Below are positions 1,243 to 34,506 of a stretch of 34,506 nucleotides of DNA, piece after piece. Origin of the DNA: a virus; IMG/VR virus record IMGVR_UViG_3300037557_000087, positions 1 to 34,506 of that record; one strand, given 5' to 3'. The notes beneath the pieces are model-generated. The model did not search any database, was not told the origin of the DNA, and was given only the letters and a program-made list of their open reading frames with translations. Each line of letters begins with the position of its first letter. Position 1 is the first letter of the stretch. The position numbers and the translations under genes were made by a program.

Positions 1243-4200
1243 TTATACCCTTATTGCATCTAACGACACATTAATTAAACCATTATCAAACTTAGCCATC
1301 CAAGAATCTCCTATCAATGGAAGAAATACACTGTAATACAATTCATTCAACCAAGGTTTACCATTGACAAACGCTTCCATATGTTGCATATAAGTCAACT
1401 TTAACCTATTTCTTGTATCTGTGGCAGTCCTAGAGTTACGACCAGTCAAATTTCTTAACCTTGTATCCAAATCAACAATGACTGCCATCGCTCCTAAAAT
1501 GTCACCCTTGCGTCTAGTATCAGGAATAAGTTCTGGGCTTTGCACAAGAAGACGCATCTCAGCGATACTGTTATCACGCCTTTCATTTTGGCTTGTCACA
1601 TGTTGAGCGAAGACTGGATGCGTTCTATCAAAAGCTTCTTTGAAAACTTGCCATTCAAAATCTAAAGAACTTGTATCCATACCAAGACCCTTATATTTAT
1701 ATCTCTTTGTTAGATAATCTTGATAAGTTTTATGGTAAATACCACTAGCCGCATTGGAATACAATTCGTCTAAGAACTCTTCTGGAGATAAGGTGTATGT
1801 AAGAGCTAAATTAAGTTGCCTTGTTTTTGCTTCTGCCGAAAACTCTGTGTCTTCTTCATCAAATTTACGAGGCAGAAAATAAGCTGATGTGTATTTAAAA
1901 GTTCCAATAAACTCTGGGTTGTCTGCAATGTACTGATTTGATGCGTCGAACGCTTCCATAACAGCGTAACTAACCTTCTTTGATTTACCTGTCATAAACG
2001 GTGAGTGTTCTAATGGGTTGAATGGTTCACCTGTAAAAGCTTCTATAGCTTCTATCCATAAACCGTATGCTTCTTGGTATGGCACTCCAGTTGACAGAAT
2101 ATCTTGGAACATTTTGTTCCATTCCCAACCTTCATGCGTTGTCAGATCAGCCAAAGTAGCTGTGTTAGGCCCCAATGCCCATGACAAACTCTGTAAGAGT
2201 TGCAGTTGCATAGCCATCATGTCAACCTCATCGTAGAACTTTTCCTTTTCTAAAGGAGTCATGTTCTTTTCATCAGGCAACCTGCCGTTCATTGCAAGGT
2301 AACTCATAACATCTTGTGCGGCTTTGTTTCTAGCCGCGCCATTTGCGAACGGTTCCAACTGCATCATTTGTAATGGTCTTGCTATAACAGCAGGAACAAC
2401 AGCAGACCAAATAGTTTCAGCTAACACTCTCGCTTGATTACCAACACCATTAATAGGTTCACTAGCAGTTTGGAATCTTCCTCCTATTAGATTTTTTTCA
2501 AAAGTTTGTCTGATACTAGGATCTCTATGTGCAAGCAAATTTAGAGGTATAACTAACAGAGGGCCGAATCCGGGGCTACCTATACGTTCTAAATCGTAGC
2601 CGGGAATTACATTAATACTTGTACTTAGCCCCGACTCTAAACTTGCCCGTGTTATAAATCCTAATGGACCACCAAAGTAGTTACCTATTATTGGGAATTC
2701 TTCTGCTAATTCCAAAGCAAATGTAGTAGCTGTTTCAGATCCGGGGATAACTAAGATTTTGTCGCCTCGTGAATTTTCCTGAATAAGCCCACCGTTAATA
2801 CCAGCATTCATAGTGAGATGAACTCTCCGTAACATTAAAGGATTATGATTTATACTTCTGCCCATTCTTCTAAGGAACTGATCTTCTGCAAACCAGAAAG
2901 GTAGGAGTGTTCCTACCATTTCTTGGAATTGTGATCTGATCCGATGGTCATCTATAAACGCACTGGTTAATGTTAAAGCAGTTTTAGTAGCTAAATCTCT
3001 ATGAGTTTCGAATTGTAAAGCTGACCTTGCAACAAAATCAAAGAACTCATCTACAACTTTTGGATCGCTATTGACAATAGCTTTAAAGATTGGTGGCAAC
3101 TCTACGCCATCTTTAATAGCAGTTGTGACATTCTTTTCTAATGCACCATTATTTCTTGTTTGTATATTAAAAGCTATCTTAGACATAAGATCATCAGGAT
3201 CAACAGAACGACCCACATAATCAAACTTGATGAACCCTTCTAAACTATCTATTTGTACTTGACCATCAACTTTAGTTACACCTTTAAGCTTTTCTAAATT
3301 CTTATACGCATCCGGTGAATGGTTATAAAGATTACGCGCTCCAACAGTTTGTGCTTTAGCAATCGTATAATAATGCTGGAACATAGGTTCACGAACCATC
3401 GCTCCGATCATTGGATTTACAACACCATCAAACCAATTACGAAGTAAAGTATTCCATGCCTTACTTATAACTTCTCCCTTAGAACCAGCTTGGTTAGTCA
3501 CAGGAACGAACGTAAGTATTTTCTCTGGTGCTTTTTCCCACCATCCAGCATTCACCGCATTCTCGTGAATCCTCCAAGGGCTGATCTCAACACCTTTTTC
3601 AGTGTTTAAAATCTCTCTGATCCAAGGGTTGAAGGTTTCAAAACCTTGACCGGATACTGTGCGGACACCAGTGGTAAATAAATCTTCTATCTCTAACAAG
3701 TTCAGCATCGCTAATTCTTCTGCCGCGTTACGCAAATCATTATGAGTAACTATCTGTTCATCAATAATGTCCCATTCATCTTTGTTGTACCAACTGTAAT
3801 GATCGTTCTCATCTGCAACTCTTAGACTCGCTGTTCGACCATCTTGTTTGTTTTGATATACACGAACCCGATGGGTTAATGGTTCGTTGTCCATCATTTG
3901 CACACTTCGCAACCCATCACTATGAGGGTAAAGAAGGTGAGGATTTAACCCTATAATATTCTCACCTCTCATACCATTCGCACCAAAATCTAAAGCTGAT
4001 TGTGGTCCTTCTGCTCCCCAACCCCAGAAATTTTCTTGTAATCTGATATCACCAATATCTGCTAATTCTTCATAGGTGATTGTTTGATTCACACCATTCC
4101 TAGTTGTAGTGATAGGAGGCCCCTTCAATGATGATCTTCCTCTTACAGCCGCACCAGCATCATTAAATAGTTCTTCTGCATTTAATTCTATGCTTCCAAT

Positions 4201-7200
4201 ACGACCACTTGTTGATGTCTTCGGAGGCCCATCTATATATCTTAAAAGAGAATTATCTAATGATCTTGACACCGCGCTTGCGATGGCATCATTAGGGCTT
4301 GATAAAAGAAGAGGGAAAAAATTAGCGTCATTGTTTTTATAAGCTATAGCAAGGTCACCATAGATAGAAGGAGTCATACCTGTTACTTGAGGTGACATGC
4401 TTGGTTGAAGCATACGTGCTACAGCTTCAGCATTATTAGTAGACACACCTATTTGTGTGAATTCAAAAGATAGTCTCTCAACAAAATCATCAAACCATGC
4501 TTGGCTAGTTGTAACGTCGCTAGTTAAGACACGACCTAAAGCTACGACAAGATCTTGTGATATGAGAGGAACAAATAAACGAACATGCCCTTCAGGTAAA
4601 GGCATACTCAATACATCACCAGCACCATCGAAACTAATATTTGATCGGTGTGTGCTTATTAATCTTTGCTGTCCTTCAATAGACATCAGATCATTTACAA
4701 ATGCTTGCTTTGCATTTGCTTTAGTTATTACCCAATCATTAGTTATTTTTGTTACATCTAAATCATGTAATAAGAACGCAATAGGATTTGGACTGGCGCC
4801 AACTCCGGGTACAGGTTCAAGAAATTTCCTAACTGTTTGTTTAATATTGTCAGGCATGGCATCTATAAACTCTTCGATAGCCCCAAGTTTTGTAGCCATC
4901 TCATCTGCTTTTTCAACTGTGTCTATATTTTTAATAGCAACTATATCGAATGCCTCGTCAAGTGACCGTAAAGCTTCTCTGTGATGTTCATGGAAATATT
5001 TATAAATAATAGCCGCGTTTGTTTCTCCTTCTCTGCCGGGAAGACCAAGCGCACGAACCAACTCCCCGAAGCTGGCCTCTTGTTGAGGTGAGGAATAATG
5101 AGCTATTTGTTTAAGCGCCGCTATGTGTGAAGGATCACCTGACATGACATCTAAGCGTTGTCCGACACCAACACTCTTATCAACCGAGTACATGTCGTTC
5201 GTGCCTATATTAGATGCCCATCTTAATTCTGTTGCACCATAGTTCATAGGTAACTGCAACTGTGGTGTTACACCAAATCCTCCTTGTTTTAATACAGTGT
5301 CGAGGTTTACTTTGTCTGCCGCTATATGGGAATCAAAAGTTCCTAAGATGTCTTTCATTTTTGTATCTATAAAAGTTGGGTTCGTATACAACTCTGCTAT
5401 ATCTAATACACGTTGGTCGAAATTCTTATCTAACTTTCTACCAATCCATTTAGCAATTTGTTGTTTAGTACCAATACCCATTGGCGTGGCAGAATAATGC
5501 ATTAAAGCTGAAAGCTTTTGCGCTTCTGCTTCAGCCCATTCAAAAGCCATTCGTGAAAAAGAACCAAGTCCTCTTTGTTTATGTAATATTCTTTCTCTGG
5601 TTGCTTTAAATAATAAATGTTTTTGTTCATCAGATAAGAAACGCCACTTATGACCTGACTTTTCTATTGATTCAATTATCGCTTTCCTTGTAATAGCGTA
5701 ATCACCTACACCAGCGACCTCATTTATTGAACGCCATATACGTGAAAACGGTTTCCATACCAAAGCTGTTTGAGTTTCAGGATCTATATTCTGCCAAATT
5801 TTTCTACCGTATGCGTCCCACACTTTGCGTCTACCAGCGGCAACTTGCGCCGCTTTTTGAGCTTGCCATTGTCTTGGTCCTTCACGCCACATGAATGAAG
5901 CAAGCTCTTCCCCACCGTTACGAGCAACGTAACCTAATCGTAATAGAACTGCTGGTCGCCATGTACGAGACATGAACTTGTCAATCTTTGGAAGCCATGA
6001 ACCCCACCCAAGATTTCTGTAAAGAGCCATGTACCTTGATACTGCTCCCAACTCTCGGTAATTAGGAATTATATTTGTTGTAGTTAAGTGTCCTGTATAC
6101 GCTTCACCAGCGATAATACCCCGTCGGCGTTCAAGTCCTTGTATACCAATAGCTTCATCAGCAAAGTTCGCATACCGTTGATGCCCATATCTTATGAACC
6201 TTTGGATAAACTCTTGGACATCTCGACCACCATGTAGAAGAGCGCCACTTCGCCCTATGAAATCTAAAAAGAATTCGCTTTGTACAAGCCAGCGTTCAGA
6301 ATCATTACCCATTATAAATGTACGAACATAGCTATCTATTCTCGTTCGAGACATCCCTGCCATGACACCCATATCAACAAGAGCAGTAAATTCTGAGATA
6401 GCCGTATTAGCATCTGTCACATCAAGAAGAGTATTCCTTGGCGTGTATGTTAATAGTTTCTCAGCAAAACGTGCAGGATGATAAGCCACACCTACACCGA
6501 ATGCTTTAACACCCGCAGGTATTAACGAACCAGCACCCACATGATGCAACCTTCCTAGTTCAGCATTTGTACTTCCGGGTGGGTGCATTTGATTATAGTA
6601 ATAATTTTTCGCCGCTTGCACTGGGCCATGAAAAGGACCTTTAATATTTGCTTTTAATACTAATGAACCGTCACGTATCTCATAACCATTAGCTTGATAC
6701 CATTTTAATAAAGGATCTAATTCGCCGTCCTCTAAAATAATACGAGCGGCGCTTGTTTCGTGTAATGTTCTAGCTTGTTCTATCGTTGTTAAATCTTCTA
6801 TACGAACGAGTTCACTTGTTTCAATAGTAGGGTCATTTAATATCCGAGTAAGCATCTCTTCGTCAATGTCTTTACTGACCTGTATTGATCCAGATTGAAT
6901 GTCATCCCATAATTTTTTGTGGATGTAATCAGCTTGTCTAGACAGATACGTGGCAGTCATACGTGCAATATCCGCGATGCCTTCATCTGGGAATTTATCA
7001 AAATCTAATGTATTGCGAATCCATCTTTTCCCTTTTATCCATTGTGCGCCAAATCCACCAATAGCAGGAAGGAATCTTGCTTCGGGACTTACGCCTCCCA
7101 TTTTAGAAGCCAGCATATTCCAGCCTTCTTCATCAGCTAAGAATTCCCAAAAGCCATCGTATTCAGAAAGAGTAGCTTTATGGTCTTTAAGTATTTTAAG

Positions 7201-8802
7201 ATGTCCTTCTGGTAAAACATCACGACCTCGGCTAAATGACAATGCATCATCTGATATTGTAAGAACTTCGTTCCTTGCTTTCCGATGCCATGCTTTCATT
7301 CCGGGAAGAATCGCAGATATAGCAGGTAGATCCCTTGACAAAGCAGTTATCTGATCCATGCCACCTGTCTCTAAAAAAAACTTTTCGTTTATTTCTGCTT
7401 TTAATTGTGCGTTTGTTAACGATGGGTCTTCTCTAAATCTTTTTAATTTATAATCATCTATCAAATCTATTTCTTTAAATGCGGCTTCAATTCTTTCCTG
7501 CATACGGTTAATGGCTCTAGCTTGAGCCCTAGTACTAATCTTTGTAGCCGCCCATATACGCAACCCTGTTCCATAACCCCTGCTACCAGCATGTAACCAC
7601 GTTCGTAATTCTTTAGCAGGGTTCCAAACTTCACCTGTGACTTTATTCACTACATCTAAAGATGAAACATTCTTACCGTCGATTGCTTTTTGCACAGTAG
7701 CTATTCGTCGCCACATATCAATAGCACCTCTACCAGAATCAGTAGCACGTACCCCTGCTTTTATTGCTCTTACTCCTTTAATCCAAAATCCTCCAACGTA
7801 GGTCATGGGATCTAAAAGAATCTCTGTAGCAAGAGAACCAACAATACCAATAGCTTTTGCAGGTGCAGTTCCGGGTCGCACATCCCACGGCGTTGTCCTG
7901 TTCCATGCTCTTACTGAAGCTTCAGCATTAGTTAACCGTCCGCTTTCTAAAGTAGTAAAAGCATTCTGTATATCAGGGTCATTTAATTTATCAACAAAAT
8001 TTGTGAACGTCTGACGAATTGTTTCAGAATCTTTTCCTTCTGCTACTCCGATTTCTTCAAGCTTGTCATATACACCTTGTAAATCTTTACGCAAAAATAT
8101 TTTTAATAACTCTGTTTGATCTCTACCTAAATCAGAAACAACTTTATCAGTAGCCCATTTATAGTAAGAACCATCGTCATACTCAGATGCATCCCATGCT
8201 TCTTTCCATTTACGAGGATTTATAAAATCTGTTCCACCACGTTCTGCTCTATGGGCAATAGAACGTCCGGTGTGTGTAGCCAAACGTGAAGGTTTCATTA
8301 TGCCGTATTCCCAAATGTTTCGCGCCGCTCCACCAGCAAAAAATCCCATAGCTCTAAGTGGAGAAAGCCCTACTTTAACAACAGGCCCCATGTGTTCTTC
8401 GGGTAGTACTGGGATATCCCAAGTAAAGATACGTTTTAATAAGCTGTCTTGTTTTCTTTCACTTGGTAGTTCATAACCAGAACCTCGTAAAAATTTCTGC
8501 ATCTTTGGCGGAAGTGAAACGAATTCTGCTTCCTGCATTTGAGTAGGTAATATCTCAAAATTTTCTTTCATTTCATTAAACTGGACTTGATCCATCGCCC
8601 CAATGAAATTAGAAAGCATATCAAAATCGCTTGAAGCGCTTTGAACATGTTGAACCATCGAACTAGGTTCTATATCAAAAAACCTACTCGCTCCTGTAGA
8701 GAATAAAAGTTCCATTCTTCTACCATGTAGCTCATCATTAATAGTCGACTGAGCGCTTCTGTCTACAGACATTATCTGCGAAATTTTAGTAGGGGCAAAC
8801 AT
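1243..8802 (-). CDS. Giant virion-associated protein (2519 aa)
   Basis: A single uninterrupted 7.56-kb reading frame takes up over a fifth of the window. Its ATG overlaps the stop of the preceding small gene (TAATG), which itself overlaps the portal, so it belongs to the late operon. It looks mainly alpha-helical with many Trp and Tyr. Hydrophobic or amphipathic stretches occur, for example around residues 314-345 (IGIVGSLATEILL) and near 150-160 (AMGFFAGGAA). I see no convincing catalytic motif: no lysozyme or transglycosylase signature, no RNA-polymerase motifs of the N4 type, and no long coiled coil as expected of a tape measure. Podoviruses place large ejected internal proteins near the portal (T7 gp15/gp16, N4 virion RNA polymerase), and some actinobacterial podoviruses carry one gene of extraordinary length. 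An ejected internal core or channel protein is the most likely role by position and size, not by sequence match. Confidence 0.9.
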   Translation of the reverse strand: MFAPTKISQIMSVDRSAQSTINDELHGRRMELLFSTGASRFFDIEPSSMVQHVQSASSDFDMLSNFIGAMDQVQFNEMKENFEILPTQMQEAEFVSLPPKMQKFLRGSGYELPSERKQDSLLKRIFTWDIPVLPEEHMGPVVKVGLSPLRAMGFFAGGAARNIWEYGIMKPSRLATHTGRSIAHRAERGGTDFINPRKWKEAWDASEYDDGSYYKWATDKVVSDLGRDQTELLKIFLRKDLQGVYDKLEEIGVAEGKDSETIRQTFTNFVDKLNDPDIQNAFTTLESGRLTNAEASVRAWNRTTPWDVRPGTAPAKAIGIVGSLATEILLDPMTYVGGFWIKGVRAIKAGVRATDSGRGAIDMWRRIATVQKAIDGKNVSSLDVVNKVTGEVWNPAKELRTWLHAGSRGYGTGLRIWAATKISTRAQARAINRMQERIEAAFKEIDLIDDYKLKRFREDPSLTNAQLKAEINEKFFLETGGMDQITALSRDLPAISAILPGMKAWHRKARNEVLTISDDALSFSRGRDVLPEGHLKILKDHKATLSEYDGFWEFLADEEGWNMLASKMGGVSPEARFLPAIGGFGAQWIKGKRWIRNTLDFDKFPDEGIADIARMTATYLSRQADYIHKKLWDDIQSGSIQVSKDIDEEMLTRILNDPTIETSELVRIEDLTTIEQARTLHETSAARIILEDGELDPLLKWYQANGYEIRDGSLVLKANIKGPFHGPVQAAKNYYYNQMHPPGSTNAELGRLHHVGAGSLIPAGVKAFGVGVAYHPARFAEKLLTYTPRNTLLDVTDANTAISEFTALVDMGVMAGMSRTRIDSYVRTFIMGNDSERWLVQSEFFLDFIGRSGALLHGGRDVQEFIQRFIRYGHQRYANFADEAIGIQGLERRRGIIAGEAYTGHLTTTNIIPNYRELGAVSRYMALYRNLGWGSWLPKIDKFMSRTWRPAVLLRLGYVARNGGEELASFMWREGPRQWQAQKAAQVAAGRRKVWDAYGRKIWQNIDPETQTALVWKPFSRIWRSINEVAGVGDYAITRKAIIESIEKSGHKWRFLSDEQKHLLFKATRERILHKQRGLGSFSRMAFEWAEAEAQKLSALMHYSATPMGIGTKQQIAKWIGRKLDKNFDQRVLDIAELYTNPTFIDTKMKDILGTFDSHIAADKVNLDTVLKQGGFGVTPQLQLPMNYGATELRWASNIGTNDMYSVDKSVGVGQRLDVMSGDPSHIAALKQIAHYSSPQQEASFGELVRALGLPGREGETNAAIIYKYFHEHHREALRSLDEAFDIVAIKNIDTVEKADEMATKLGAIEEFIDAMPDNIKQTVRKFLEPVPGVGASPNPIAFLLHDLDVTKITNDWVITKANAKQAFVNDLMSIEGQQRLISTHRSNISFDGAGDVLSMPLPEGHVRLFVPLISQDLVVALGRVLTSDVTTSQAWFDDFVERLSFEFTQIGVSTNNAEAVARMLQPSMSPQVTGMTPSIYGDLAIAYKNNDANFFPLLLSSPNDAIASAVSRSLDNSLLRYIDGPPKTSTSGRIGSIELNAEELFNDAGAAVRGRSSLKGPPITTTRNGVNQTITYEELADIGDIRLQENFWGWGAEGPQSALDFGANGMRGENIIGLNPHLLYPHSDGLRSVQMMDNEPLTHRVRVYQNKQDGRTASLRVADENDHYSWYNKDEWDIIDEQIVTHNDLRNAAEELAMLNLLEIEDLFTTGVRTVSGQGFETFNPWIREILNTEKGVEISPWRIHENAVNAGWWEKAPEKILTFVPVTNQAGSKGEVISKAWNTLLRNWFDGVVNPMIGAMVREPMFQHYYTIAKAQTVGARNLYNHSPDAYKNLEKLKGVTKVDGQVQIDSLEGFIKFDYVGRSVDPDDLMSKIAFNIQTRNNGALEKNVTTAIKDGVELPPIFKAIVNSDPKVVDEFFDFVARSALQFETHRDLATKTALTLTSAFIDDHRIRSQFQEMVGTLLPFWFAEDQFLRRMGRSINHNPLMLRRVHLTMNAGINGGLIQENSRGDKILVIPGSETATTFALELAEEFPIIGNYFGGPLGFITRASLESGLSTSINVIPGYDLERIGSPGFGPLLVIPLNLLAHRDPSIRQTFEKNLIGGRFQTASEPINGVGNQARVLAETIWSAVVPAVIARPLQMMQLEPFANGAARNKAAQDVMSYLAMNGRLPDEKNMTPLEKEKFYDEVDMMAMQLQLLQSLSWALGPNTATLADLTTHEGWEWNKMFQDILSTGVPYQEAYGLWIEAIEAFTGEPFNPLEHSPFMTGKSKKVSYAVMEAFDASNQYIADNPEFIGTFKYTSAYFLPRKFDEEDTEFSAEAKTRQLNLALTYTLSPEEFLDELYSNAASGIYHKTYQDYLTKRYKYKGLGMDTSSLDFEWQVFKEAFDRTHPVFAQHVTSQNERRDNSIAEMRLLVQSPELIPDTRRKGDILGAMAVIVDLDTRLRNLTGRNSRTATDTRNRLKLTYMQHMEAFVNGKPWLNELYYSVFLPLIGDSWMAKFDNGLINVSLDAIRV

Positions 8803-17036: not shown

Positions 17037-17423
17037 CTATGCCAATGTTATGACTAGCGCACCTGCCGCAAGTGAAATTGTGTCTCCCGAAGCCACGGCT
17101 TTAGAAGCCGTAACAGCTCCATAAAACAAAAGGTTCCCTGAAGAAGCCGCATCCCAAATACCTATATGGCTCACAGTGCAAGCCGGCATGGAAGTAAACT
17201 CCTCAGCGGACGAATTGTCTATAGTACCGTTAGATGCATGAGCGGCATTGAAAGTAATAGCCTGACGGGCGTAAGACCCACCAGAAGCTTCTGCACCAGA
17301 ACCGGCATCAGTAGGATCAGCGGTATGCAAAGCAAGGTATATCGCCGCCGGAGCCCAATCTGCTTGATCGCGAAGAACGTAGTCTAAAACTTTCGTCTCC
17401 AAATAATTTGACATAGCTGACAT
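17037..17423 (-). CDS. Small conserved tail/fibre-region protein
   Basis: This 128-residue protein is the first gene of the leftward late operon. After an N-terminal helix (SNYLETKVLDYVLRDQ) it carries the block IYLALHTADPTD, then GSYARQAITF, then HIGIWDAASSGNLLFYGAVT. I recognise this order as a widespread phage family usually labelled tail protein or tail fibre protein, found near receptor-binding genes in actinophages and other siphoviruses and podoviruses. The predicted fold is a compact beta barrel. A clear AGGAGA ribosome site (17429-17434 complement) precedes the ATG. The next in-frame Met (MSNYL, residue 4) is an alternative start. Confidence 0.85.
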   Translation of the reverse strand: MSAMSNYLETKVLDYVLRDQADWAPAAIYLALHTADPTDAGSGAEASGGSYARQAITFNAAHASNGTIDNSSAEEFTSMPACTVSHIGIWDAASSGNLLFYGAVTASKAVASGDTISLAAGALVITLA

Positions 17424-17443
17424 TAAAATCTCCTAAAAGGTTT

Positions 17444-17453
17444 GAACATGTTC
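17444..17453. promoter_or_regulatory. Palindrome GAACATGTTC, possible operator
   Basis: A perfect 10-bp palindrome lies between the candidate leftward promoter -10 box and the ribosome site of the first late gene, about where the transcript would begin. A repressor bound here would block late transcription. Inverted halves in this position are typical of operators, but a 10-bp palindrome can also occur by chance. Confidence 0.35.
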
Positions 17454-17459
17454 ACTCCT

Positions 17460-17488
17460 ATGATATAAATATATACGCGCCCCGTCCA
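17460..17488 (-). promoter_or_regulatory. Candidate late promoter (leftward)
   Basis: Read on the minus strand, TGGACG (17488-17483) and TATCAT (17465-17460) are separated by exactly 17 bases. They match the sigma-70/SigA-type -35 (four of six) and -10 (five of six) consensus. The promoter points into the 17423 gene and lies in an AT-rich stretch right after the hairpin region. It would drive the late operon with host polymerase. Confidence 0.45.
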
Positions 17489-17520
17489 GACTACAGGGTT
17501 TTAAATATAAAACGAAGTCT

Positions 17521-17546
17521 GCGAACCCTTATCAGGTTCAGTTCGC
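17521..17546 (-). terminator. Hairpin, possible terminator of a leftward RNA
   Basis: GCGAAC and GTTCGC enclose an inner CC/GG pair and a TTATCA loop. On the minus strand the stem is followed, after about eight bases, by TTTTATATTT. It could end a leftward transcript of the structured region before the late promoter, or insulate the late promoter. The T-tract distance is longer than ideal. Confidence 0.3.
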
Positions 17547-17807
17547 CCGTCAGATGGGCTTCTGTCCCCTACAATCAACTCAAGTAGAGGCAGAGACAAG
17601 CGTGATCGCTCGAACTCGAAGTGGAACCGTACTTAAAACGGCCGGATGGCACCCAAGGGGAAACTAAACTCAACACATCCGGTGTCCACGACAAGAATAA
17701 CAAGCCAGACACATATATATACAACCCCCCTCTGGCACATCCCCCCCTAAGAGGGACGCTTCGCTTACCTTTTGTCCAAATAAACCCCCCCAAGACCCCT
17801 CTGGACT
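17547..17807. other. Gene-free stretch with stems and C-tracts
   Basis: No convincing gene is present; the long minus-strand frame across it is low-complexity His/Pro/Gly sequence. It holds a 7-bp inverted repeat CCGGATG (17642-17648) / CATCCGG (17676-17682) with an inner CCCAAGGG. It also holds three runs of six or more C (near 17726, 17742 and 17785) and two near-copies of CCCCTCTGG. It may be part of the structured element to its right. Confidence 0.5.
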
Positions 17808-17893
17808 TTATGTTTGTGTTTTTGTTGTGTTTTGGGATGTGTGGGTGGCAGGGTTGTGGTGGTTGTGGGTGGTGTGTGTGTGGGTGCTGTGCG
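17808..17893 (+). other. GT-rich tract with G-quadruplex potential
   Basis: Over about 85 bases the plus strand is almost entirely G and T, with only one C before the last few bases, and multiple GG and GGG runs in the second half (17834-17884). It follows immediately on a C-rich stretch, so strand composition flips sharply near 17806. As DNA it could form a two-tier quadruplex or unwind easily. As minus-strand RNA it would be an unstructured CA-rich linker. Confidence 0.6.
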
Positions 17894-17962
17894 TATTTGG
17901 ACAATTCGAGATGAATCTCGACTCTCCCTGTGTGAGAGATTAGAAAACCGTAGTCTAGATTC

Positions 17963-17990
17963 CTGTGCAATCGGAGAGAAGATTGCTACG
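17963..17990 (+). repeat. Stem module copy 1 (8-base insert)
   Basis: CTGTGCAATC, 8 bases, then GATTGCTACG. The inner GCAATC/GATTGC pair forms a 6-bp stem, while the unpaired CTGT and TACG flanks are also conserved between copies. TCTAGAT occurs a few bases upstream, as in copy 3. Confidence 0.8.
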
Positions 17991-18180
17991 GAACAAGACC
18001 CTTCGGGCTCACGACCAAGCTCCTCCCTAGAAGAGAGAAGCGGTCGGAGTACTACAGGGTGTGGCTGGCATTGGATGAATCAGTCTACTCGCGAGCGAGC
18101 GACTAAGATTCAGATGCCAGAACGTGTCCGCTTTGGTCTAAGTACGGGAATTCATACAGCCTCTAGAGAGTGATGTCATT

Positions 18181-18227
18181 CTGTGCAATCAAGTCAACTC
18201 CCAAGGGAGTTACTATAGATTGCTACG
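18181..18227 (+). repeat. Stem module copy 2 (27-base insert)
   Basis: CTGTGCAATC and GATTGCTACG, here separated by a 27-base insert that itself forms the AACTCCC/GGGAGTT hairpin. The module lies inside a larger junction closed by TGTCAT/ATGACA. Confidence 0.8.
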
Positions 18228-18564
18228 CAATGCCCTCGGCATTGACATGACACTAGCGACTAAGAAGCGAGCTTCTAAGTCTACTGCTTCAGTCGTTCCT
18301 CCTTCTGTCACTCTTGAGACGCTGTTATGAATCGACTTTTTGTACTACAAGCTAGCCACGATGGCATCAAAAGATCAAAATGCCGACTTTTGACACTCAT
18401 CGGCTACTTGTGCAAAAAAGCTCGCCACACTCTCCACCACACACACAGTCGTCCGTCCGCTGACTCGAAGTGGACGAGGAAGCGAACGAGTTCGCTTGCC
18501 ACTTCGGTCGGCAGAGGAGCTCTGTATCACATGAGTCTCCATTAGTAAATTCGGTTCTAGATAG

Positions 18565-18586
18565 CTGTGCAATCAAGATTGCTACG
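18565..18586 (+). repeat. Stem module copy 3 (2-base insert)
   Basis: CTGTGCAATC and GATTGCTACG with only AA between them. It is preceded by TCTAGAT and followed closely by the candidate early promoter. It marks the right end of the structured region. Confidence 0.8.
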
Positions 18587-18601
18587 CTTTCACGCCCCGA
18601 C

Positions 18602-18630
18602 TTGACAAATTCCGACTAGTTACATGTGAT
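18602..18630 (+). promoter_or_regulatory. Candidate early promoter (rightward)
   Basis: A perfect -35 box TTGACA (18602-18607) and a -10-like TGTGAT (18625-18630, four of six) are separated by 17 bases. It lies just outside the structured region and upstream of the first small early gene, pointing into the whole rightward block. It is probably read by host housekeeping sigma factor. Confidence 0.5.
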
Positions 18631-18680
18631 GTAGAGCGGTCGACTGTGTGCAGGTAGTAGGCAGTTAGAAAGAGATTAAA

Positions 18681-18797
18681 ATGACTTGTAAAAAATGGAC
18701 TTGTTGTCGATTCATGTGGATTTATGAATTACGGATAACTATTAACATGCTAAAGGACGCTCGGCTGTTGGCAAAGTTGGACAAGGAGGGTTTCTAA
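18681..18797 (+). CDS. Small leader protein (38 aa), translationally coupled
   Basis: ATG at 18681 opens a 38-codon frame (MTCKKWTCCRFMWIYELRIT...LLAKLDKEGF) whose TAA overlaps the ATG of the next gene as TAATG, the same junction used throughout this genome. The strong GGAGGG ribosome site of the next gene lies inside its last codons. Upstream there is only a weak AGAGA site. It has three Cys and several aromatic residues in its first 14 residues. The coupling and the nearby promoter support it as real; a leader-peptide role is possible. Confidence 0.5.
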   Translation: MTCKKWTCCRFMWIYELRITINMLKDARLLAKLDKEGF

Positions 18798-19027
18798 TGA
18801 ATATGACATTTTATGAAGCTTTGACAAATTATGTTGATGCACATTTTAAACCAATAGAGACACCCAAATATATTGATCCTGAAGATGATGATGGTGATTG
18901 GGTTTGTGACCATTACAAGTGGCAAGGTGAGTCCGCTTGGATTTTAGAGACTCACCATCTCGACGAAGTTGAAAGATTTATAGAGGATTTAATTGAACAT
19001 ACAGCGAGGTTTGCTGATGTTAATTAG
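18797..19027 (+). CDS. Small acidic hypothetical protein
   Basis: This 76-residue protein, acidic (YIDPEDDDGDWVCDHYKWQG) and rich in Trp and Tyr, ends in a helical EVERFIEDLIEHTAR stretch. GGAGGG lies six bases before the ATG. It is the first well-supported gene of the early block. No family is recognised. Small acidic early proteins of phages often inhibit host enzymes or mimic DNA; this is only a general possibility here. Confidence 0.8.
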   Translation: MNMTFYEALTNYVDAHFKPIETPKYIDPEDDDGDWVCDHYKWQGESAWILETHHLDEVERFIEDLIEHTARFADVN

Positions 19028-19093: not shown

Positions 19094-19729
19094 ATGAGTA
19101 ATAAAGATAATACTGGAATTAACGCCGGAGACGGTGACGAGTCTGCTTCTAACAGGAGTCAGACAGCTTTACTTACAGCGTGGGATGAACGGGTAGAAAA
19201 GCCCCTCACTCTAGCTGTTACCCCGTGGGAATCGGCGGTATCTGACTCTGCGCAGGGGTCAGCTACTAGCTCCGAGATGTTTGAAGGTAGGCTACCGTCA
19301 GACATCAAGGCATGGGTTTCCGCTGACCTGTTTACAGGTGGGTTAGGGGATCTGTTAGCATCTACTGCTGACGCTCTCAATGCAGAACCAGCGCTGGTAG
19401 GTTTTGAACCTATACAGATTGCTCCTGAATCTATCTTGATAGGCGAGAAAGAGCATGCTGGTATAGGCATACAAGTGCGCGCACGATTTGATCGTGTGAG
19501 TACCTCGATGCTTACCGATACTCAACTTGTTGAGCAGGTGTGGCGTACCATTGGATGGATTAAACCAGACCGTATCCCTGATAATAAGGATGCTCTGATA
19601 TTCATCCGTGATTTGGGTGCAAGCGCTAGAGAAATCGGTGCTGTACGCAGGGCGCAACAAGTTATGCCTGAAGTAGTCGTTGACGAGGAGTCAAGGGCTG
19701 AATTCAGGAAGCGTGTAGCGAACGCATAG
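19094..19729 (+). CDS. Hypothetical early protein (211 aa)
   Basis: The start has a near-perfect AGGAGG ribosome site. The first ~60 residues are Ser/Asp/Ala-rich and probably disordered (NAGDGDESASNRSQT). A mixed alpha/beta region follows, with GIGIQVRARFDRVSTSMLTD and a helical ASAREIGAVRRAQQ segment near the end. No family or catalytic motif is recognised. It stands alone between two hairpins, unlike the tightly overlapping genes after it, and could be expressed at a higher level. A Ser-rich N-terminus followed by a compact domain is compatible with a DNA-binding or virion-associated role, but nothing decides this. Confidence 0.85.
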   Translation: MSNKDNTGINAGDGDESASNRSQTALLTAWDERVEKPLTLAVTPWESAVSDSAQGSATSSEMFEGRLPSDIKAWVSADLFTGGLGDLLASTADALNAEPALVGFEPIQIAPESILIGEKEHAGIGIQVRARFDRVSTSMLTDTQLVEQVWRTIGWIKPDRIPDNKDALIFIRDLGASAREIGAVRRAQQVMPEVVVDEESRAEFRKRVANA

Positions 19730-19738
19730 AGTCCCTCT

Positions 19739-19782
19739 AGTCGGGGCTGGCGTTAGGTTAATCCCTAGCGTCAGTCTCGACT
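19739..19782. terminator. Long hairpin after the 211-aa gene
   Basis: AGTCG (19739-19743) pairs with CGACT (19778-19782), and CTGGCGTTAGG (19747-19757) pairs with CCTAGCGTCAG (19764-19774) using two G-T pairs. It begins ten bases after the stop codon. It is followed on the plus strand by a run of A rather than T, so it is not a classical rightward terminator. It may protect the mRNA 3' end or be an RNase site. Confidence 0.4.
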
Positions 19783-19868
19783 ACTACTAAAAAAAAATAA
19801 ATAAACCCCTCTGTTTGGGTCATCAGTATCTAAGCAGTTGGTTTTCTAACAAATATATAGGAGGCATT

Positions 19869-19958
19869 ATGCCATTAACATTTAAACCATTTATAAATCT
19901 TGCTGAGGCTGTGGCTTTGGCTAAGGAATCAGGCAGACCAGTGTTGGTGAAGCCATGA
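19869..19958 (+). CDS. Very small protein (29 aa)
   Basis: ATG at 19869 with AGGAGG four bases upstream opens a 29-codon frame (MPLTFKPFINLAEAVALAKE, ending in VLVKP). Its TGA overlaps the ATG of the next gene (ATGA). The strong ribosome site and coupling make it likely that ribosomes enter here. The sequence looks like the start of a longer protein (a loading helix), so it may be a remnant or a leader for the genes after it. Confidence 0.5.
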   Translation: MPLTFKPFINLAEAVALAKESGRPVLVKP

Positions 19959-20125
19959 TTACATTCAGGGTGGGTGATATGAGATTTGAGTATCACTCAC
20001 CTAATATTGTACCGTTTCCAGAGTTTCTGTTGGATGCGTGTGATCTTGAGCATGATTGGACTTACACATCAGGTGACAAGCTTGTGTCTGGGTTGTCAAA
20101 GAAGGGGAAGAGTAATGACGTATAG
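19955..20125 (+). CDS. Small hypothetical protein (56 aa)
   Basis: It starts by an ATGA overlap with the preceding 29-codon frame and ends eleven bases inside the next gene. The product (MITFRVGDMRFEYHSPNIVP...) has a beta-like N-terminus and a basic C-terminus (GLSKKGKSNDV). The codons around its end contain the AAGGGGAAG ribosome site of the next gene. No family is recognised; the overlaps on both sides support it. Confidence 0.6.
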   Translation: MITFRVGDMRFEYHSPNIVPFPEFLLDACDLEHDWTYTSGDKLVSGLSKKGKSNDV

Positions 20126-33385: not shown

Positions 33386-34506
33386 CTACGGAGTATCCGT
33401 GTAGCCAGTTAGATTAGTGAATCTTGCCATGTGAGACTGACCCTTAACTTGGAGTCCTTCTTCACAAACAATTTGCACCTTGTCGCTGTCACCAGTTTTG
33501 GCGAGAGCTTCAACCACGAGTGGTTGCATAACCCGTCGGGAAACATTTTCCTTCTGGACTACGAATGCACTCTCGCTGTGGCACCAGCGGTTCCTTACCA
33601 TCTGTGTTTCACCAAACTCGGTGAAGACAGACATGACAGGTACGCGACCACGACGAGGATCATCAATGGTTGTGCGGACACGACCACTATCTGATACTGC
33701 ATTTAGGGTAGCAAACGAAGCTGGGTTAGCGATCAGAAGATCGGGGATACCACCTGCGTTGTAGCATTTTTGCATCAAAGCTTCTAACGCTGTGAGCGTC
33801 AACGTAGTTGTTGAGCTGTCAGTGTTAGTAGTAATGAAGTTCATCAAGCCACCAGTTGAACGGCGCTTGGTTGCTGTATCGTTTACTGGCTTACCATAAA
33901 GGTATGCTTGTTCACGAGTTATCACGTTCTCAACTGAGCGGCCATAAACTTGCTTGGCGAACTCATCAGATACACCGTAACGGGATACCTGCTGTTCTGA
34001 ACGTGTCATGTGGATAGGTGTAGGTCCGAAGATCTGCGTGTAGTTCGAGTGGATCGTACGATCTGCTGAACGTGCAGTTCCCGGATCGGAACCTTCAACC
34101 AGTGCAGTACCAACACATACAACTGTGTCTTCATGCGCGGCTGTTGTTGCTGGCCATGCTGAACCATTAGCCCAATCAGCTACGTTAATAACACCACTGG
34201 TATTATTAATCGCTGTGATTCTCTTAATGGCACCATTGACAGTAGCGTCTTCTTCACCAATGTTTAGAAGATCGTCTTCTTGGAACCTGTAAGAGTCGGC
34301 GGCTGAAACTGTAATAGTTGTAGCGCCTGCTCCTGCGGCTCCTGTACCAGCTACGGTGCAACGAGGAAGCAAAAGCTCCTCGTCCATCCATTTAAACTCT
34401 TGTTGATCTACGGGAGAACTTGAAAGAAGTTGCCTTCCATCAGTTCCAATACCGTTGATAAACGGAGAGTCTGTTGGTGAAATCATGTAAATGAGTTCAT
34501 CCATGT
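33386..34506 (-). CDS. Major capsid protein (SU10/DUF5309-like), 5' end cut by window edge
   Basis: The visible 372 codons begin DELIYMISPTDSPFINGIGT, which matches the internal opening of SU10-like (DUF5309) major capsid proteins, where 'I-x-x-x-x-P-T-D-(T/S)-P-F' usually lies 15-40 residues after the true start. The ATG at 34504 is therefore probably internal and the gene probably begins outside the window. Other family-like parts are FGPTPIHMTRSEQQVSRYGV, DEFAKQVYGRSVENVITREQ, GGIPDLLIANPASFATLNAV and a C-terminal KTGDSDKVQIVCEEGLQVKG. A variable insertion of ~50 Gly/Ala/Ser/Thr-rich residues follows the first strand. It assembles the icosahedral head. Confidence 0.85.
   Translation of the reverse strand, partial: MDELIYMISPTDSPFINGIGTDGRQLLSSSPVDQQEFKWMDEELLLPRCTVAGTGAAGAGATTITVSAADSYRFQEDDLLNIGEEDATVNGAIKRITAINNTSGVINVADWANGSAWPATTAAHEDTVVCVGTALVEGSDPGTARSADRTIHSNYTQIFGPTPIHMTRSEQQVSRYGVSDEFAKQVYGRSVENVITREQAYLYGKPVNDTATKRRSTGGLMNFITTNTDSSTTTLTLTALEALMQKCYNAGGIPDLLIANPASFATLNAVSDSGRVRTTIDDPRRGRVPVMSVFTEFGETQMVRNRWCHSESAFVVQKENVSRRVMQPLVVEALAKTGDSDKVQIVCEEGLQVKGQSHMARFTNLTGYTDTP

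Follow-up and report, generated by a model that had tools for sequence, protein, structure and literature searches.

A two-part structured region, probably RNA, between the early and capsid genes of a marine phage lineage

The 34.5-kb phage record analysed here, referred to as the window, has a gene-free gap at positions 17424–18680, between its early and capsid genes, and the question is what such a stretch might do there. The sequence-only reading saw in this hairpin-packed 1.25 kb a candidate for one large undescribed RNA or cis-acting element. We find that the gap is a real, conserved and structured region, probably RNA, which is new to Rfam and consists of two parts. To our knowledge, few large structured phage RNAs have been described, and most of these have no known function. 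Its position, where the early genes give way to the structural ones, points to a concrete hypothesis of regulation. The relatives belong to an uncultured marine lineage, and with a conserved element beside the capsid operon as partner, a recurring loop motif and exchange of modules, both function and evolution become testable. We will refer to the left and right parts of the gap as A and B respectively (Table 1).

Setting of the gap

The structural genes, for the portal, the terminase, a head protein (17037–17423) and an SU10-type major capsid protein, run leftward, and the head gene of the capsid operon borders the gap on its left. The early genes run rightward from 18681, where an ORF with a plausible ribosome site begins, and so the gap ends there; no relatives of this ORF were found, nor any relatives of the downstream 211-aa protein among viral contigs. 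The gene direction switches at the gap, as does the sign of the GC skew. The window has no tRNA. A relative with 79% identity in the head protein occurs in a marine Actinomycetota genome bin, which suggests that the host of this phage belongs to the Actinomycetota.

We saw no protein-like ORFs in the gap. For the ORFs within B, none of the fetched loci holds a relative, and those over A match relatives on both strands simultaneously because the underlying DNA is conserved. A coding explanation is therefore rejected, and the earlier statement that no frame here looks coding is borne out.

Folding of 600-nt tiles on both strands against dinucleotide shuffles sets B apart from the rest of the window. 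Tiles over 17900–18650 reach z-scores of −7.5 to −15 on the + strand and −5.9 to −8.2 on the − strand, as compared with means of −1.2 (sd 1.9) and −0.9 (sd 1.4) respectively for the 44 other tiles, while the tile at 17251–17850, over part A, is not unusually stable (−1.2 on +, −0.3 on −). Unusually stable folding is thus confirmed for 17895–18660 and not for 17430–17890, which is of ordinary stability, and the gap is not the single element envisaged but two different parts, a conserved A and a hypervariable B. The lone other tile with so low a score, 33751–34350 (z −8.0), lies within the coding sequence for the major capsid protein, on the + strand, opposite to the gene's direction.

Table 1. 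Features in and beside the gap (window coordinates; helix and loop letters of the recurrent hairpins are those of the + strand)
Feature	Position	Strand	Description	Basis
Part A	17430–17745	−	conserved and non-coding, immediately upstream of the head gene	blastn; covariance model
Promoter-like site	17460–17488	−	conserved, sigma-70-like, leftward, TGGACG-N17-TATCAT, ahead of the head gene	consensus match alone
Helix H9 of A	17480–17498	−	CCCUGU/ACGGGG, 17480–17485 with 17493–17498	covariation
Helix H8 of A	17487–17521	−	H9 loop 17487–17492 with 17516–17521, pseudoknot-like	covariation
Linker between A and B	17772–17904	open	GU-rich (+)/CA-rich (−)	closed by 11-bp perfect inverted repeat 17772–17782/17894–17904
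Part B	17895–18660	more likely − than +	large multi-branched structured element	fold z, tiles, strand test
Recurrent hairpin, copy 1	17963–17992	open	CTGTGCAATC..GATTGCTACG, asymmetric loop CUAC/GYG	loop enriched over shuffles
B domain	18056–18433	open	closing helix 18056–18072/18417–18433; holds 18156–18173/18308–18325 and several arms	inverted repeats, MFE on both strands
Second hairpin type	18082–18104	open	AGTCTACT..AGCGACT, same CUAC/GYG loop	loop enriched over shuffles
Recurrent hairpin, copy 2	18181–18227	open		sequence, inverted repeats
Second hairpin type, order flipped	18254–18286	open	AGCGACT..AGTCTACT	loop enriched over shuffles
B domain	18442–18650	open	closing helix 18442–18455/18637–18650; inner helix 18519–18533/18623–18637	inverted repeats
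Recurrent hairpin, copy 3	18565–18586	open		sequence, inverted repeats
First early ORF	18681–18797	+	38 codons, plausible ribosome site; right border of gap, start of early block	from sequence

Conservation and covariation in part A

Fifty-five relatives were collected through the head protein. By blastn, the A segment (17400–17745) is mostly 83–95% identical in the closer relatives and less so in the distant ones, and A is kept in 20-odd related phages. A covariance model of its core (17445–17600) finds members of the lineage, and gives no match in the distant relatives or in the four named phages checked, in which the related gene sits behind other structural genes of the same direction with no comparable gap in front.

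The named helices of A were assessed on the − strand in 21 distinct sequences, in which 94.3% of cells are paired and 13 pairs have changed on both sides; the covariation score is double the mean of the shuffles, and none of 500 shuffles reaches it. H9 is paired in 98.4% of cells and has changed on both sides at three of its six pairs, and one U-G pair is near-invariant (20 of the 21 sequences), and H8 has double-sided changes at all six pairs, with 97.6% of cells paired. As H8 is formed through the loop of H9, the two helices either make a pseudoknot or alternate, and they are situated shortly before the ribosome site of the capsid operon. Read as the − strand, the helices of A contain 54 G-U cells and 15 C-A cells, and a leftward reading of A, together with the capsid genes, is well supported by these comparisons. 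The promoter-like site within A is found in the window, in L073 and L079, and also in most aligned relatives, and with such a site A could be a DNA control region instead of a leader.

Structure, strand and variability of part B

On the − strand B folds at −308 kcal/mol (z −10.8 against shuffled sequence), and B together with every B-like gap in 13 relatives gives z-scores of −3.4 to −12.5 on the + strand and −4.8 to −12.0 on the − strand. We list 15 inverted-repeat pairs, several of them long-range and nested, and the stems build multi-branch domains, in agreement with the sequence-only description of separate stems nested into junctions.

Among the 55 relatives, blastn with 17760–18680 matches L019 alone, and this in pieces; other relatives hold different hairpin-rich sequence at this place. 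L073, L075 and L076 were added through pattern searches and L079 through a genome scan. The second early gene of L079 is a relative of the window gene at 18797–19027 (43% identity), which supports synteny. A search with the L073 early protein matched only itself. These four sequences align over 373 columns at 93% mean column identity, with 111 predicted pairs. Pairing is retained in 98.9% of 440 cells, and ten pairs have changed on both sides, some of them 66–81 columns apart; none of 500 shuffles attains either the paired fraction or the number of double changes, and when the partner is slid by 1–3 columns, pairing falls to 29–41%. The helix that closes the 18442–18650 domain shows a compensatory change too, spanning about 190–240 nt: it is CAGUC/GACUG in the window and CAGUU/AACUG in L019. 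A weaker set is provided by L005 and L011, whose gap looks different: all 132 pairs are kept, and their five double changes are equalled by 15 of 500 shuffles. Compensatory changes are thus present in related phages in both parts of the gap.

The strand on which B is read can be approached through the mismatches that its helices tolerate. At single-position holes in helices common to the folds of both strands, the B-like regions have 33 G-U on the − strand and nine on the + strand, many of them from related sequences so that the independent number is smaller. In the L073/L075/L076/L079 alignment there are 41 G-U cells on the − strand versus four, one-sided changes are kept by G-U in six cases versus one, and the consensus energy is better on the − strand. 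The window and L019 also lean this way (19 versus 8), while L005/L011 and L002/L009/L006 are neutral, with no clear bias. We consider it likely from these counts that B is read leftward. Two observations oppose this and leave the strand short of proven. Read as +, B has purine-rich hairpin loops, as is usual for RNA of that strand, and L073 and L079 have, on the + strand, a hairpin and then a T-run before the early gene, seen by eye and not listed by the consensus scan. No terminator-like hairpin of this type occurs in the window or L019. For the right end of B the scan gave weak consensus matches alone and no convincing leftward promoter.

B contains two hairpin types that have in common an asymmetric loop, CUAC opposite GYG in + letters. 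There are ten such sites in ten B-like regions, compared with a mean of 0.5 and a maximum of three in shuffles; they are present in the window, L019, L075, L079 and L005, and absent from the other five regions. An exact-pattern scan of 2.9 million viral contigs with both hairpin types and one further hairpin module returned members of this lineage alone. The recurrent hairpin was dropped as a means of fixing the strand by itself, since CUAC/GYG on + is a bulged-A loop, GUAG/CRC, on −, so that the motif could be read on one strand as well as on the other. Promoters of the N4 hairpin type were also considered, since the loops of several hairpins are 3 nt long; a virion polymerase is unsupported, as the 2519-aa ORF of the window (1243–8802) has no PHROG or Pfam match.

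In the relatives, segments have been exchanged between the gap and another intergenic stretch with structure, the second of its kind, which lies behind an early gene of 200–300 aa, for example L002 637–748 with L013 1479–1587 (numbered upstream from the head gene). This second stretch is found at 19501–20100 in the window and about 1650–1900 nt upstream of the head gene in L002 and L009. Short proteins with an LTFKPF-like start follow structured stretches, at about 19869–19955 in the window and as the first gene after B in L019, L073 and L076. In 16 of the 29 relatives listed first (L002–L030) the contig ends 25–821 nt upstream of the head gene (L003, L004, L007, L008, L010, L012, L014–L018, L021, L023, L024, L026 and L027). 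A fixed genome end is rejected as the cause, since the ends are scattered over this range, and a hypervariable or hard-to-assemble region fits better. On these comparisons B is hypervariable and modular.

What the gap may encode

Searches with the Rfam 15 families over the window and 14 relatives gave no match in the gap above the gathering cut-off, and loose thresholds gave hits at chance level. The sole Rfam hit is a tmRNA above the cut-off at L028:2581–2675, elsewhere in that related contig. GOLLD (RF02032) has no match by cmscan or by a direct covariance-model search at E<=10, and ROOL (RF03087) none by cmscan, either in the window at the gathering cut-off or over the gap at E<=10; a direct search with the ROOL model found nothing in the region, and nothing in its controls either. 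When the gap and the B-like regions of L079 and L028 were compared with named phages by blastn, nothing matched. The membership in GOLLD or ROOL that had been entertained is not supported by these searches, with no tRNA nearby, while the failure of any family to match is consistent with an undescribed RNA. A structured RNA is indeed the best supported reading, on the strength of the compensatory changes, the Rfam result and the strand-asymmetric use of G-U, an asymmetry not expected of a pure DNA element; what has not stood is the single large RNA.

We put at even chances a model in which the gap is a leftward structured leader that controls the capsid operon in cis, with B perhaps also a noncoding RNA. 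In this model the gap would encode a structured RNA, read leftward like the capsid genes and as one transcription unit. Its upstream portion, B (about 770 nt), would be fast-evolving and built from exchangeable stem-loop modules, and its downstream portion, A, would be conserved and end with interleaved helices shortly ahead of the ribosome site of the capsid operon. Such a long leader would set the timing of transcription or translation of the operon, and B may additionally accumulate as a noncoding RNA. More tentatively, the region may belong to a class of large phage RNAs that is itself new, in which the 3' part, conserved and pseudoknotted, lies at the capsid operon, the 5' part is hypervariable and modular, and the recurrent hairpin with its bulged loop serves as a repeated binding site for protein or RNA.

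A literature search for published phage leader RNAs of such a kind found nothing close. The put RNA of HK022 is a cis-acting antitermination leader of about 70 nt with two stem-loops (PMC9378689); the region described here would resemble it if an antitermination version of the leader model holds, but is over ten times larger.

The main rival to the leader is that B, with a promoter and an end of its own, forms a separate large ornate RNA that acts in trans, abundant and perhaps multimeric like GOLLD and ROOL, and A an independent leader of the capsid operon. GOLLD and ROOL are phage RNAs that occur near tRNA islands and form cages, with function unknown; ROOL is phage-encoded, large and multi-branched, and GOLLD, encoded by phages and prophages, has many members over 800 nt and a conserved 3' region next to a less conserved 5' region (PMC12286853). 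B resembles them in size, branching and phage origin, and the gap, read on the − strand, is likewise conserved in its 3' part and variable in its 5' part. In the window, moreover, an unstructured linker, CA-rich on the − strand, parts B from A, and the promoter-like site lies within A. However, the gap has neither a covariance-model match to GOLLD nor a cmscan match to ROOL, there is no tRNA island, the conserved part abuts a capsid gene, and B differs strongly among close relatives. We regard this rival as unlikely, though it deserves to be taken seriously.

That B is a DNA element, such as a replication origin, a recombination hot spot or a cruciform-forming site whose hairpins work as DNA, appears improbable. 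It would account for the position at the switch of gene direction and GC skew, the good folding on both strands, the swapping of modules between two intergenic sites, the accumulation of contig ends, and the fact that the helices of B change mostly through double Watson-Crick substitutions. Local cruciforms would have no need of the nested longer-range pairs that are conserved, however, and the use of G-U and C-A would not be expected to differ by strand as it does.

Least probable of all is a rightward 5' leader of the early operon that acts as an attenuator, a long-range helix competing with a terminator-like hairpin: the hairpins of L073 and L079 do share a strand with the long-range closing helix, the loops are purine-rich on + and the first early gene is directly adjacent, but the window and L019 have no such terminator, the consensus scan found none, and the G-U counts favour the opposite strand.
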